A DNA stretch of 64,000 nt from Hoylesella buccalis ATCC 35310. Its GTDB lineage: Bacteria; Bacteroidota; Bacteroidia; Bacteroidales; Bacteroidaceae. Below the pieces are notes generated by a model. That model did no database searches. It was not told the origin of the DNA and worked only from the letters and a program-made list of their open reading frames with translations. The position numbers and the translations under genes are program-made. Positions 52,157 through 56,753 of the stretch are shown in pieces. Numbering within the stretch: position 1 is the first letter of the stretch; the number at the start of each line of letters is the position of its first letter. Location: contig NZ_CP102287.1 in assembly GCF_025151385.1 (NCBI RefSeq), positions 1,178,001 through 1,242,000 of the forward strand, read 5' to 3'.

Positions 52157-52939
52157 CTACAAATCTTCTTTCACATTTCGCCTTATTTTTGCCAAATATC
52201 TTTTCATTCCTTCCGCATCTTTGTTGGCAATGATGTTCAGGAGTTCTTTCAATTCTACCCGTATCTGCGACACTTGGTCGTGCGTGTAGGGATTGAAAAG
52301 TATTTCCTGCAAGAGATAATCATCCTCGTTCAACACACCCTTGGCAATGCGCATGTGCCGCTTAAACGTCGTTCCAGGCGCATCTTGATGCTTCATCACG
52401 GCCGCAAAGACGAACGTACTGACAAAGGGAATGCTCAACGAATAAGCCACAGTTTTGTCGTGTTCCTCGAACGTGTACTCGTAGATGTGCAGCCCCAGAC
52501 GCTGGTACAGATCCTTGAAGAAGATGCGCCCCATGTAATCACCCTCGCTGATGATAATGGCATTCTCCTCATTCAACTGGTTTAAGTTGGCAAAAGTGGG
52601 TCCGAACATGGGGTGCGTTGAAACGTAAGGGTGGCCCACCTGCTCATAAAAAGCCTTCAAACCCGTCTTCACCGAGCTGATGTCACTCAATATACAGTTG
52701 GTCGGCAGGTAGGGCATCACCTCCTGAAAAGCCGGAATGGTGTATTTCACTGTCACGGCGTTGATGACCAGTTCGGGTTGAAAAACCCGCACCTCGTTCA
52801 ACGAAGTGAAGCGTTGACAGTTGTACGTGAAGCGCATTCGCTTCGGATCTTTCTCGTACACGGCCGTCTCATGGTCGAAACTGAGCAGGTCAAGGAAGAA
52901 ACTTCCCATCTTGCCTGCACCCATTATCAGTATTCGCAT
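52157..52939 (-). CDS. tyrA: Prephenate dehydrogenase
   Basis: This enzyme oxidises prephenate to 4-hydroxyphenylpyruvate in tyrosine synthesis. The NAD site ILIMGAGKMGSFFLDLLS opens the protein, LSDISSVKTGL (about 90-100) and STHPMFGPTFANL (about 110-122, with the catalytic His) follow, then a helical dimer domain. Length 260 aa is on the short side but common in Bacteroidota. It is the last gene of the aromatic operon, separated from the DAHP synthase/chorismate mutase gene by a 156-bp gap holding a large inverted repeat. Confidence 0.9.
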   Translation of the reverse strand: MRILIMGAGKMGSFFLDLLSFDHETAVYEKDPKRMRFTYNCQRFTSLNEVRVFQPELVINAVTVKYTIPAFQEVMPYLPTNCILSDISSVKTGLKAFYEQVGHPYVSTHPMFGPTFANLNQLNEENAIIISEGDYMGRIFFKDLYQRLGLHIYEYTFEEHDKTVAYSLSIPFVSTFVFAAVMKHQDAPGTTFKRHMRIAKGVLNEDDYLLQEILFNPYTHDQVSQIRVELKELLNIIANKDAEGMKRYLAKIRRNVKEDL

Positions 52940-52964: not shown

Positions 52965-53103
52965 AATTCATAATATAGTTGACAAGTTTACGAGTTTACA
53001 AGTTCACCGGTTGATAGTCTTATAAGCAATAAATCTATTTACTTGTCTCCTCGTCAACTTGTAAACTCGTAAACTCGTAAACTTGTCAACTATATTATGA
53101 ATT
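52965..53103. repeat. Large inverted repeat with 8-bp sub-repeats
   Basis: The 40-nt left arm (52965-53004) and 48-nt right arm (53056-53103) are complementary, differing only by one extra 8-base unit (ACGAGTTT when read as the left arm). The left arm has one and the right arm two copies of this sub-repeat. The right arm overlaps the stop codon of the aroF-like gene. It may terminate, stabilise or slow transcription between aroF and tyrA, or be a slippage-prone repeat of the kind seen at 60291-60345. Confidence 0.7.
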
Positions 53104-54159
53104 AATGATTTTCAGTTGTTGTCTCACACTCTCCTGGTGTATCTCTTCAAAGATATTGGCCACACTCTCAGCCGAGATACCACACTGCTCGCCCTGCTTT
53201 CCTCGCTTTTCCAATATCTCTTTGTAACGATTTGACTGCAACACGGTCATGTTGTGTTCTTTCTTGTACTGCCCTATTTCACGGCAAACACGAAGACGTT
53301 TTGACAAAAGTGCCATGATTTCATCATCCAACTCGTCAATCTGCGCGCGCAAACTACGCAGACCTTCGGTCGTAGTATGTTCATCACGAATCACCAGCAT
53401 GCTCAGAATGATGTCCAAGGCATTAGGGGTTACCTGCTGTTTGGCATCGCTCCAGGCGTTGTCGGGATTACAATGCGACTCCACAATAAGTCCATCGAAT
53501 CCCAAATCCATCGCTTGTTGACTAAGTGGACCTATCAGTTCTCTGCGCCCGCCGATATGACTTGGGTCGCAAATGATGGGCAATTCAGGGATACGGCGAC
53601 GCAGTTCAATGGGGATTTGCCACATCGGAAGATTTCGATACATTGTTTTTTCGTAGCTTGAAAAACCGCGATGAATAGCTCCTAAACGCTTCACACCAGC
53701 CCTATTGAGACGTTCCAAGGCTCCAATCCACAATTCCAAGTCGGGATTGACAGGGTTTTTAACAAGCACAGGGACATCCACACCCTGCAAAGAGTCGGCC
53801 AAAGCCTGCATGGCAAAGGGGTTGGCAGCGGTGCGAGCCCCTATCCAAAGGATGTCTAAGCCATGCTTCAAACACAGCTCTACATGCTCTGGGATGGCCA
53901 CTTCTGTAGAAACAAACATTCCGGTTTCATCCTTCACACGTTTCAACCACGGCAAAGCCTCCTCGCCTTTCCCCTCAAAACCTCCGGGTTTGGTGCGGGG
54001 CTTCCACACACCAGCCCTAAAATTATGGCATCCTTTCTTTTTCAATTGCCATGCTGTCCCCATGACCTGTTGCTCCGTTTCGGCACTACAAGGCCCCGCA
54101 ATGACGAAAGGTCGCTTTACATCACTTTGTAAATTGAGTGGTAATAAGTCTATTTCCAT
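53095..54159 (-). CDS. Bifunctional DAHP synthase / chorismate mutase
   Basis: The N-terminal two-thirds (residues about 1-255) is a type I-beta (KDO8P-like) 3-deoxy-7-phosphoheptulonate synthase: FVIAGPCSAET (about 19-29), FRAGVWKPRTKPGGFEG, LVKNPVNPDLELW, IICDPSHIGGRREL. It condenses PEP and erythrose-4-phosphate. The C-terminal third (from about 265: LRSLRAQIDELDDEIMALLSKRLRVCREIGQYK) is an AroQ chorismate mutase, so entry and branch point share a chain. The ATG at 54159 fits a -7 box TACCTTTG (54198-54205, minus); a GTG at 54192 would lie at or before the transcript start. That promoter is internal to the operon. Confidence 0.93.
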   Translation of the reverse strand: MEIDLLPLNLQSDVKRPFVIAGPCSAETEQQVMGTAWQLKKKGCHNFRAGVWKPRTKPGGFEGKGEEALPWLKRVKDETGMFVSTEVAIPEHVELCLKHGLDILWIGARTAANPFAMQALADSLQGVDVPVLVKNPVNPDLELWIGALERLNRAGVKRLGAIHRGFSSYEKTMYRNLPMWQIPIELRRRIPELPIICDPSHIGGRRELIGPLSQQAMDLGFDGLIVESHCNPDNAWSDAKQQVTPNALDIILSMLVIRDEHTTTEGLRSLRAQIDELDDEIMALLSKRLRVCREIGQYKKEHNMTVLQSNRYKEILEKRGKQGEQCGISAESVANIFEEIHQESVRQQLKIINS

Positions 54160-54197
54160 TTCATTTTTTCTATTTTCTATCACCTTTGACACTATGG

Positions 54198-54292: not shown

Positions 54293-55462
54293 CTACCATG
54301 CCATTGCCTGAAGGCGCATCAAGGCTTCGTTCATCTTTGTTTCTTTGGCACATAGTGATATTCGGATATAGCGTTTTCCGTTGCTACCAAATATAAATCC
54401 AGGGGTAATAAAAACGTTCGACTTGTGCAATACACGTTCGGTGAGTTGCTCGGCATCCTTATATTTGGCAGGAATACGCCCCCATAAAAACATCCCCACT
54501 TGTGCATGATCATAGCTACAGCCCAAGACTTGCATGATCTGTTCAGCTATCTTGCGACGCTCTTTGTACACCTTCACATTATTTATATAATGCCACATTT
54601 CGTCATTAGTATTGTATGCCTCAGCTGCAGCCAACTGAATACCGCGAAAAGTGCCGCTGTCTATGTTGCTTTTTATCTTGAGAATCCACGAAATATACGT
54701 TGCATTCGATGCGCACAAGCCCACTCTCCACCCTGGCATATTAAAGCTTTTAGACATAGAGTTGAACTCGATGCAGCAATCTTTGGCTCCCTCTACTTGC
54801 ATGATTGACAATGGACGGTCGTTAAGTATGAACGAATAAGGATTGTCATTGACAATCACAATATTGTGTTTTTGTGCAAATGCCACTAATTTCTCATAGG
54901 TCTCCAATTGCGCATTGCCGCCCGTAGGCATGTGAGGATAATTGGTCCACATCAGTCGAACCTTTGCTAAATCCATTTGTTCTAACTCATCAAAGTCGGG
55001 CTGCCATGCATTCTCCTCTCGTAAGTTGTAATTGAGTACCTGTACTCCCAACAATTTACTCAGCGAAGTATATGTAGGATAACCTGGATTGGGAATCAAT
55101 ACGGCATCTCCAGGATTGCAAAAAGCCAGCGTTACGTGCAAAATACCCTCCTTACTACCAATGAGCGGCTGTATTTCGGTTTGTGGATTGAGCCTCACGT
55201 CATACCATTTTTCGTAAAAGCGTGCCATGGCTTGGCGCAATTCTGGCGTACCACAGGTGGGTTGATAGCCATGTGTAGAAACGTCGTTGGCTACTTCGCA
55301 GAGCTTTTGAACCGTTTGATGAGAAGGCGGCATATCAGGACTACCTATGGCAAGTGAGATGATATCGTTTCCCGAGGCTTGCAGCTGTGCTACTTCTTTC
55401 AGTTTCTTACTGAAATAATATTCTTGTATTTGGTTCACACGTTGTGCAGGTTGAATGTTCAT
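54293..55462 (-). CDS. PLP-dependent aminotransferase (aromatic operon)
   Basis: This is a class I/II aminotransferase (389 aa) with IIPxP-like IPNPGYPTYTSL (about 108-119), NYPHMPTGG, VNDNPYSFI (the PLP-ring Asp/Tyr) and the Schiff-base Lys in FNSMSKSFNMPGWRVG (about 230-245). The C-terminus has the carboxylate Arg in RYIRISLC. The ATG at 55462 is preferred to one at 55501 because homology starts at MNIQPAQRVNQI. It is the first gene after the aromatic attenuator, so transamination of phenylpyruvate or 4-hydroxyphenylpyruvate is likely; family similarity alone would also allow aspartate or diaminopimelate substrates. Confidence 0.88.
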   Translation of the reverse strand: MNIQPAQRVNQIQEYYFSKKLKEVAQLQASGNDIISLAIGSPDMPPSHQTVQKLCEVANDVSTHGYQPTCGTPELRQAMARFYEKWYDVRLNPQTEIQPLIGSKEGILHVTLAFCNPGDAVLIPNPGYPTYTSLSKLLGVQVLNYNLREENAWQPDFDELEQMDLAKVRLMWTNYPHMPTGGNAQLETYEKLVAFAQKHNIVIVNDNPYSFILNDRPLSIMQVEGAKDCCIEFNSMSKSFNMPGWRVGLCASNATYISWILKIKSNIDSGTFRGIQLAAAEAYNTNDEMWHYINNVKVYKERRKIAEQIMQVLGCSYDHAQVGMFLWGRIPAKYKDAEQLTERVLHKSNVFITPGFIFGSNGKRYIRISLCAKETKMNEALMRLQAMAW

Positions 55463-55601
55463 TTTGTTGTTGATTTTATAGTTAGACCACGAACTTATCA
55501 TTCAATCTTCTTCCTCTTTGCCTTTCCGACCTCATGGTGACAGGAAGAATTGTTTTGCTTTCTCTTCATATCCTTATCTGTTTGATGAGGCACTACAAGC
55601 G

Positions 55602-55640
55602 AAAAGCCCCGCTTTCACATATTGTGAAGCGAGGCTTTTA
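55602..55640 (-). terminator. Attenuator terminator hairpin
   Basis: Minus strand: AAAGCCTCGCTTCAC (55639-55625 region) pairs with GTGAAAGCGGGGCTTT (55618-55603 region), one bulge and one G-T pair, loop of about 5, then TTTTC. It lies between the leader peptide and the aminotransferase gene. Its 5' arm includes CGCTTCACAA (55622-55631), which can instead pair perfectly with the leader segment TTGTGAAGCG (55680-55689). Confidence 0.8.
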
Positions 55641-55661
55641 TGGGGTTATTTATTGAATTGA

Positions 55662-55745
55662 CTATGGCACACAAACTTCCGCTTCACAAGTGTTTGCAAA
55701 GTAAAAATAGAAGTAATAATAAGATGTGTGTGACTGATTCAACAT
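55662..55745 (-). CDS. Aromatic attenuation leader peptide (27 aa)
   Basis: This short gene starts ATG at 55745 and stops TAG at 55662-55664. Codons 9-16 (55698-55721) read TAT TAT TAC TTC TAT TTT TAC TTT, i.e. YYYFYFYF, followed by ANTCEAEVCVP. Such an uninterrupted run of tyrosine and phenylalanine codons upstream of aromatic biosynthesis genes is the hallmark of a leader peptide whose stalled ribosome senses charged tRNA-Phe and tRNA-Tyr. It lies 27 bases downstream of a consensus -7 box, and its 3' half contains the antiterminator segment 55680-55689. It is too short for standard gene calling. Confidence 0.88.
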   Translation of the reverse strand: MLNQSHTSYYYFYFYFANTCEAEVCVP

Positions 55746-55771
55746 TTTTCTCATATTTCCTAATTCGATTA

Positions 55772-55803
55772 CAAAAGTAGATGATTTATTTGTAACTAAC
55801 AAA
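55772..55803 (-). promoter_or_regulatory. Promoter of the attenuated aromatic operon
   Basis: Minus strand: TTTG at 55800-55803, a 20-bp spacer, and TACTTTTG at 55772-55779. The predicted start near 55765 leaves a leader of about 20 nt before the leader peptide ATG. Confidence 0.72.
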
Positions 55804-55862
55804 CATTTTGCTAAGGAATCATTAAAATAGCTTACATTTTTAATATTTTTAAAGACGATGTA

Positions 55863-56753
55863 TCAAGAATTGCTGAAAATGCCGTATGCGTCCACGTTTT
55901 TGTAGGCCTGTTTCACCTTCTGCTCCACATCCTCATCAGCAACACCTTGGGCCTGATCGGCAGCCAATTGAGCAGCCATCTTCTCGGCCATCTCAATGTC
56001 TTCCCTACCGCCTTGCTCATCACCCAGCTCCATCCTGAGCGGTCCTCGTTCCTGAAAGGCAACCATCGAGAATGGGTTCACATCTATCACCTTATTATAA
56101 TAGGTAAGCGCCTCAGCCTTGTTGCCCTTCTTCTGTTCGATGCGAGCCTTCAAAACCAGCACGTCTTCGTTGTCTGCCAACTGTTCTAACAGATGGGTAG
56201 CGTCTTCATCCGCAGCGTCCAAATCACCCGAATCCAACAGCGTTTCGCCTCGCAAAAGATAGGCTTCGTATGCTTTGGGGTTCAACATGATGGCCTTGGT
56301 GAGCATGGCAATGGCGTTGGTAAGGTCGTCACGACCTATACAGGCTTTGGCATAGCGATACAACACTTGCGGATTTTCACTGTCCACGAGCATGGCTTTC
56401 TCGCAGGCATTGCCCATGGCAACATAGTCTTCCATCATATATGCCACGTCGGCCATGCGAAGATAAATCTGCAAATTGTCGGGTTTTGCCTCCATCAGCT
56501 TCTGCAATTGTGCGTAGGCACCAGGCAGGTCGTTGTTTCGTATCAATGCCTGTGAATAGTAATCACGCGTCTCCAGATCATCGTGCAGCTGTAAGGCGTG
56601 ACTGAAACAGCGCAGGGCTTGTTCTATTTGGTTAATCTGTAACGCTCTAACACCATCGTATTTCAGTGTTTCAAAGTTCTTTCGTTCTTCTTCCCGACGC
56701 TTTTCTTCCTCGTTTTCAACCTTGCTTCCAAACAGCGATTTCATGAAATTCAT
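55863..56753 (-). CDS. Tetratricopeptide repeat protein
   Basis: This 296-residue soluble protein has a charged N-terminal helix (KVENEEEKRREEERKNFETLKYDG) followed by about seven TPR units between residues 30 and 255 (e.g. YEAYLLRGETLLDSGDLDAADEDATHLLEQ, ALTYYNKVIDVNPFSMVAFQERG). It presumably scaffolds protein contacts. The ATG at 56753 or 56744 fits; the stop codon of the upstream gene is 5 bp away, so the two form an operon. Confidence 0.78.
   Translation of the reverse strand: MNFMKSLFGSKVENEEEKRREEERKNFETLKYDGVRALQINQIEQALRCFSHALQLHDDLETRDYYSQALIRNNDLPGAYAQLQKLMEAKPDNLQIYLRMADVAYMMEDYVAMGNACEKAMLVDSENPQVLYRYAKACIGRDDLTNAIAMLTKAIMLNPKAYEAYLLRGETLLDSGDLDAADEDATHLLEQLADNEDVLVLKARIEQKKGNKAEALTYYNKVIDVNPFSMVAFQERGPLRMELGDEQGGREDIEMAEKMAAQLAADQAQGVADEDVEQKVKQAYKNVDAYGIFSNS

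Follow-up and report, generated by a model that had tools for sequence, protein, structure and literature searches.

A putative ribosome-mediated attenuator reading Phe and Tyr codons before aromatic amino acid genes of Hoylesella buccalis and its relatives in the Bacteroidales

How does Hoylesella buccalis set the expression of its aromatic amino acid genes? The question is raised by a short open reading frame (ORF) with a run of Tyr and Phe codons in the window, that is, the whole 64,000-nucleotide stretch analysed here (strain ATCC 35310, contig NZ_CP102287.1, positions 1,178,001 to 1,242,000). In the window genome this leader lies directly 5' of the first gene, a class I/II aminotransferase (54293..55501, minus strand, like the other operon genes and all parts of the leader; Pfam PF00155). 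The true start of the aminotransferase is perhaps the ATG at 55462-55460, and most relatives' matches begin at residues 7-16; its nearest named relatives are from Hoylesella timonensis (98%) and H. buccalis (97%), and one Prevotellaceae MAG reaches 99%. Downstream lie a DAHP synthase fused to chorismate mutase (53095..54192; PF00793 and PF01817) and a prephenate dehydrogenase-like gene, tyrA (52157..52939; PF02153). The first-pass annotation had named an aminotransferase, a DAHP synthase/chorismate mutase and possibly a prephenate dehydrogenase here, and by Pfam all three are present.

The candidate promoter, TTTG-N20-TACTTTTG (55772..55803), has TTTG at 55803-55800 and, after a spacing of 20 bp, TACTTTTG at 55779-55772. 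A like motif is found in relatives: TTG-N17-23-TAnnTTTG, which we take to be of the Bacteroidota type, occurs no more than 160 nt from the ATG of the leader at 74 of 76 loci compared with 1 of 76 shuffled ones. The leader ORF, of a type shared with relatives, has 27 codons (MLNQSHTSYYYFYFYFANTCEAEVCVP; 55662..55745), starts at ATG 55745 with a second in-frame ATG at 55754, and ends at TAG 55664-55662. Its eight control codons (55698..55721), TAT TAT TAC TTC TAT TTT TAC TTT, encode YYYFYFYF. Segment 1, CACACATCTT (55721..55730), is able to pair with AAGTTTGTGTG (55678-55668) in segment 2 (55668..55689), which begins with the 5' arm of the antiterminator, TTGTGAAGCG (55689-55680). This arm starts 8 bases past the control codons and is the exact complement of segment 3, CGCTTCACAA (55622..55631), which serves both as the 3' arm of the antiterminator and as part of the 5' arm of the intrinsic terminator, a 3:4 hairpin with a U tract (AAAAGCCTCGCTTCACAATATGTGAAAGCGGGGCTTTT; 55602..55639; -20.7 kcal/mol). 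The promoter, ATG, ORF, codon run, hairpin and complementarity had all been placed correctly to the base by the first-pass annotation. As 12 places in the 3.3-Mb genome (16 matches) have six F/Y codons in a row, with 26 matches for the reversed control pattern, a run of six is nothing special. The window run is the sole run of eight among the genome matches listed, in which two others reach seven, judged by match overlap.

In all likelihood, to judge from its sequence, the leader controls transcription by ribosome-mediated attenuation and senses charged tRNA-Phe together with charged tRNA-Tyr. As in pheL/trpL-type attenuators, a short ORF is present between the promoter and the first gene, and it carries a codon run for the operon's end product (Y/F); there is an intrinsic terminator before the first gene, and an antiterminator that excludes it and is conserved with covariation. 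When both charged tRNAs are plentiful, the ribosome would pass the Y/F codons, reach the stop and cover segment 2, and the nascent 3:4 hairpin would terminate transcription before the first gene. When tRNA-Phe or tRNA-Tyr is short, the ribosome would stall in the run and cover segment 1; segment 2, left free, would form 2:3 before segment 4 is made, and with the terminator pre-empted the aminotransferase, DAHP synthase/chorismate mutase and tyrA genes would be transcribed. We infer that the leader is translated, that ribosome and RNA polymerase are coupled and that the switch responds to starvation. In this bacterium and most of its relatives, the Phe/Tyr genes are very probably on only when these amino acids are in short supply.

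Conservation in relatives had been proposed as a check on this mechanism. Among 80 named relatives, four (L050, L055, L077 and L097) had too little upstream DNA and were dropped, leaving 76 assessable. The leader is present before the operon in 75 of these 76 named Prevotellaceae loci, e.g. as MNKSYASFYYFYFYFAGNCEAGSCV followed by a stop; L109, kept in the count as a miss, lacks the leader and, by eye, retains the hairpin. The terminator is present at 76 of 76 loci, window included, and in 72 of 76 leaders 9 nt separate the last control codon from segment 2. A start of pheA, the prephenate dehydratase gene, is found no more than 500 nt after the leader in 71 of 75 named relatives (tblastn with the L040 protein, which is PF00800), and the remaining four (L035-L038) are the window's own clade. 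Judged from these gene neighbourhoods, the leader is part of a pheA operon. In a 150-genome sample of the genus, the aminotransferase is found in 119, the leader in 120 and pheA in 119, some of these entries being inferred from gaps in the genome numbering. Leader and aminotransferase occur together in 117 of the 150, and 117 of the 119 genomes with the aminotransferase have the leader. The aminotransferase without a leader is seen in G060, at a contig end, and in G098, where no leader was found in the sequence before pheA (L309). Three incomplete genomes (G056, G057 and G115) have a leader, with pheA adjoining it, and no aminotransferase, and the leader is in none of the 27 genus genomes without both aminotransferase and pheA. 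With the Y/F run and the hairpin pairing kept among relatives, the attenuator reading was not refuted.

The pairing arms carry the second line of evidence. In the genus (76 leaders), segments pair better with their own partners than with those of other species: the duplex energy is -20.0 kcal/mol in cis and -19.1 across species for 2:3, -20.8 and -15.8 for 3:4, and -15.1 and -13.7 for 1:2 (0 of 5000 permutations for each contrast; the permutations ignore relatedness). The contrast is larger in the order set (n=28, with L131 and L132 left out), where the cis and trans means are -17.1 and -12.8 kcal/mol for 2:3, -18.9 and -12.7 for 3:4, and -18.7 and -14.5 for 1:2 (0 of 20000 permutations each, relatedness again ignored). 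Segment 2 set against the whole post-stop spacer gave no contrast (-7.01 in cis, -7.03 in trans). Alignment A1 shows 91.5% of cells paired for 2:3, where 4 of 11 pairs have changed on both sides, and 83.1% for 3:4. Pairing is kept with changed letters in GGTGAGGC:GCCTCACC (L143), GAGCAGGA:TCCTGCTC (L145) and ACGGGATTTTA:TAAAATCCCGT (L149). Alignment A2 took in 29 of 30 order loci, L142 being left out with a mis-called terminator, and 4 genus loci. Terminator and antiterminator thus co-vary across relatives, as the proposed covariation check had asked. A further helix, AAGUUG/CAACUU, lies at the peptide end and just past the stop (A1 columns 82-87 with 100-105); it is paired in 75.5% of cells and shows some double changes (UCGUUG/CAACGA, AUGUUG/CAACAU and GAGUUG/CAACUC).

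A weaker pairing, proposed as the 1:2 hairpin, is present in the window sequence. It fared less evenly: its cis pairing exceeds that across species, but its fixed-column covariation is weak, and folding, described below, shows no protection. In A1 it is paired in 77.8% of cells, and most measures are not clearly above shuffles. By eye, its partners vary by subgroup (CACACA/UGUGUG in the window, UACGCA/UGCGUA in many others) and are therefore beyond the reach of fixed alignment columns.

These patterns bear on two other explanations. Depending on where it sits, the ribosome could also uncover or mask Rho sites, and the leader ORF might control Rho access or first-gene translation and not an intrinsic terminator; a U-tract hairpin at 76 of 76 loci, with arms that match in cis, makes this very improbable. 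A structured leader before an amino-acid operon might also be a riboswitch, a T-box or the target of an RNA-binding protein that reads metabolite or tRNA directly, the ORF being incidental. The best conserved columns are, however, the Y/F run and the pairing arms, and the leader has no riboswitch or T-box match in Rfam. At the gathering score, Rfam gave only a cobalamin riboswitch in the 64-kb window (RF00174; 36895-37081, minus strand, 99.9 bits) and no T-box, and no T-box match was found in 55480-55880 up to an E-value of 10. We give this explanation hardly any weight.

Folding calculations for different ribosome positions agree in part with attenuation. In RNA ending before segment 4, the upstream pairing of segment 3 averages 0.74 (above 0.5 in 75 of 76 leaders) with the ribosome stalled at the last control codon, and 0.23 (above 0.5 in 1 of 76 in one calculation and 2 of 76 in another) with the ribosome at the stop codon; the direction of the switch is therefore right. 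The E. coli pheL and trpL leaders go in the same direction, with values of 0.43 and 0.62 when stalled and 0.0 at the stop. In the ribosome-free state, segment 3 pairs upstream with a mean of 0.79 (above 0.5 in 68 of 76 leaders), as against 0.16 for pheL and 0.05 for trpL, and 1:2 is therefore no block to 2:3 in the calculation. The probability of 1:2 is 0.94 before segment 3 exists, yet 2:3 is not excluded at equilibrium; this measure is 0.0 for both E. coli leaders, to which its cut is unsuited, and the 0.94 is not comparable with theirs. On these calculations, either 1:2 may act kinetically or untranslated leaders may read through. At full length the terminator exceeds 0.5 in 66 to 76 of the 76 leaders in any ribosome state, with the E. 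coli controls alike, so stalling does not abolish the terminator at equilibrium. Full-length equilibrium folding was accordingly set aside as a test, as it does not separate the ribosome states, whereas folding before arm 4 does.

If the codons are sensors, what do they sense? Loci were classed by the genes after the leader, and pheA was called lone where tblastn finds no aminotransferase, DAHP synthase or TyrA relative in the sequence covered at that locus; lone-pheA loci whose sequence extended less than 1400 nt from the pheA start were left unclassed, which removes G315. From the codon and module analyses, 11 kinds of spurious short ORFs were excluded by their first letters. The 8 leaders before lone pheA, from 4 families, have an F/(F+Y) fraction of 0.96 in the run. 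For the 88 leaders of combined operons (71 genomes, 37 families) the fraction is 0.57, and for the 15 leaders (7 families) that precede Tyr-side genes in the absence of pheA it is 0.44. Family means differ between lone pheA and combined operons (p=0.0007), Tyr-side and combined operons (p=0.002), and lone pheA and Tyr-side operons (p=0.005). The lone-pheA leaders are L341 (G173), L342 (G357), L270 (G183), L278 (G362), L281 (G422), L321 (G163), L343 (G238) and L277 (G392), and the run of G173 reads FRFFFFFAFFF. The single genome G163 has split leaders, the one at pheA reading FFTHFFFFF and the one at tyrA-DAHPS FGYYAFYYYFFY; G173 and G357 are split in a similar way. L251, before tyrA in G183, is a counter-example, a Phe-rich leader on the Tyr side. 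A lone pheA without a leader also exists, e.g. in G276 and G419. The 2:3 pairing was matched by more than 10 of 200 shuffles in 3 of the 8 lone-pheA leaders, where it is thus not clearly better than shuffled, in 2 of the 34 tandem modules and in 2 of 10 leaders on the Tyr side. From these comparisons, the codon shift with operon content is the strongest sign that the codons act as sensors. Sensing of Phe and Tyr in one leader had been thought unusual; in the combined operons examined, the mixed run turns out to be the common state. Wobble positions vary, the F/Y codons of the 76 leaders being TTT (238), TTC (36), TAT (110) and TAC (209). Trp codons occur within the F/Y runs of L252, L329, L330, L283, L284, L288, L289 and L291, and these leaders may also read tRNA-Trp.

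The same shift bears on whether the product is a small peptide that acts in trans, for instance a hydrophobic regulatory or membrane peptide, next to an ordinary terminator hairpin. A peptide end, (N)CEAGSCV, is indeed common within the genus; it is explained by RNA pairing. A one-base insertion after the control codons of L051 and L078 shifts the frame and puts the stop inside the antiterminator, whose bases are kept, and at several loci in other families (e.g. L134 and L149) the ORF stops ahead of the antiterminator or at it, with a different peptide end. As F and Y also shift with operon content, we put very little faith in a trans-acting peptide. Attenuation, which the first-pass annotation had favoured, is the best fit, because the conserved control codons, the hairpins with their co-varying arms, the cis pairing of 1:2 and a codon content that follows the operon agree.

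In 18 genomes (17 in 10 families, and G315), a single pheA is preceded by two F/Y leader ORFs in series (L206 in G295, L216 in G203, L224 in G315, L225 in G229, L340 in G339, L333 in G372, L334 in G383, L335 in G245, L336 in G330, L337 in G354, L338 in G210, L339 in G404, L286 in G319, L288 in G373, L291 in G431, L294 in G296, L312 in G169 and L313 in G417). All 34 modules of the 17 tandem genomes have a hairpin and a T-rich tail under a relaxed rule; for 32 of them, no more than 10 of 200 shuffles equalled the 2:3 pairing. In both modules the run mixes Phe and Tyr.

The window genome is a special case. No match to prephenate dehydratase (PF00800) was found in its 3.3-Mb sequence (G000), the control being found in 14 of 14 genomes, and it is likewise unmatched in H. 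timonensis S9-PR14 (G029). HisG and the N-terminal domain of TrpE were not found in G000 either, and the organism is therefore probably auxotrophic for Phe, His and Trp; as read from its gene content, it keeps its Tyr-side genes under a Phe/Tyr leader. With pheA lost in this lineage, the switch probably now tunes the tyrosine-side enzymes and still reads imported Phe. The loss also raises the possibility that the leader is decayed, a non-functional remnant. All arms and the eight control codons are intact, however, and G072, G097, G116 and G139 also have the leader directly before the aminotransferase and keep leader, hairpin and 2:3 pairing, so that decay appears unlikely. In G072, G097 and G116, pheA is found at a separate place, where no F/Y leader was seen; no pheA was seen in G139, whose genome is 70% complete. 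A shift of the window leader towards Tyr after pheA loss was considered and is unsupported: BV3P1 (L039), which has pheA, carries the same YYYFYFYF, and in the genus the mean run composition differs little, 0.47 with pheA (n=71) and 0.40 without (n=5). Past the terminator, a 23-codon ORF (MKRKQNN..., 55569-55498) has a TGA stop that overlaps the ATG at 55501 (ATGA), and it recurs with changes in L036 and L038. It is possibly a coupling ORF or a trace of pheA; local alignment to L039 gave no support for a pheA remnant behind the terminator.

How far does the family reach? Two models, R1 and R2, were searched in 295 genomes of the order; R2 was built from order loci, and both match their training loci by construction. 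R1 matches 96 of the 295 genomes at E<=0.01 and R2 matches 142 at E<=0.001, with some weaker matches partial or away from aromatic genes. For at least 94 of the 139 pheA places in the order sample, R2 finds a match no more than 400 nt upstream. By reading, the 45 other pheA places comprise 28 with an F/Y leader, 10 with none and 7 unassessable, where contig ends cut in or sequence was ambiguous or lacking. In total, of the order's 132 pheA genes that could be assessed, at least 122 have the leader, and ten do not. Of the 38 regions read by eye, 5 were too short for a control of the reading rule. The rule picks out 28 of the other 33, compared with 2 of the 33 when reversed and 2.0 when shuffled, and with 6 of 252 control windows. 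Outside the order, the 40 pheA regions covered are a selection from 257 genomes with a match. The leader is found in 5 of 13 regions within the same class (L164 and L170-L173, by eye also with a terminator and complementary segment) and in 0 of 27 outside the class. In this sampling, and as far as sequence can tell, the leader family is lineage-specific.

Taken together, we lean somewhat towards the view that the Bacteroidales hold an old, lineage-specific attenuator family that works as a two-amino-acid OR gate, reads Phe only at lone pheA and is often serially doubled, which would sharpen control. If so, the ubiquity of the attenuator would mean tight ribosome-RNA polymerase coupling in the Bacteroidota, and transcription-translation coupling is predicted there. 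An element upstream of most pheA genes in a major gut order is now open to modelling and annotation. Split, merged and doubled leaders offer natural experiments on the way control codons change in evolution as operon content changes, and the family suggests how aromatic biosynthesis in commensals of the gut or mouth is set by the supply of Phe and Tyr there.

We found no description of Phe/Tyr leaders in Bacteroidales in a search that covered few subscription papers; Lopatovskaya 2010, said to be the likeliest earlier survey, may hold one. Several published systems come near. The accessible part of one report places such leaders in Proteobacteria and Actinobacteria only, before its own case (PMC2965389), and that of another notes short ORFs like leader peptides in B. 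thetaiotaomicron (PMC7366714). For Flavobacterium psychrophilum, structured elements before pheA and hisG without an Rfam hit, present also in other Flavobacteriaceae, were described in 2021, and in the text available the authors point to hints of attenuation by leader peptides at operons for amino acids (PMC9723704). The pheA element resembles ours in gene, class and want of an Rfam hit; section 19 of that paper gives it without peptide, codons or mechanism, and the part available does not mention Bacteroidales (PMC9723704). The Salmonella mgtCBR leader, as the available text describes it, likewise has two short ORFs in one leader, which respond to different signals, ATP and proline, whereas both of our tandem modules are Phe/Tyr, each with its own hairpin (PMC3641672).

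The closest likeness is to E. coli pheL-pheA (RF01859, Phe_leader), with its Phe-codon peptide, terminator and competing antiterminator upstream of pheA. Membership of RF01859 was rejected, the score being 18.3 bits against a cut-off of 55 in a permissive Rfam search. On comparison of the sequences, the kind of mechanism, pheL/trpL-type attenuation, is known and the family is a new form of it; what appears new in it is that it is lineage-specific, reads two amino acids, is doubled in 18 genomes and has codons that follow operon content. Unlike E. coli pheL, the leader here has a mixed Phe/Tyr run, also precedes aminotransferase, DAHP synthase/chorismate mutase and tyrA genes, and in the folding calculation leaves the untranslated state unprotected.
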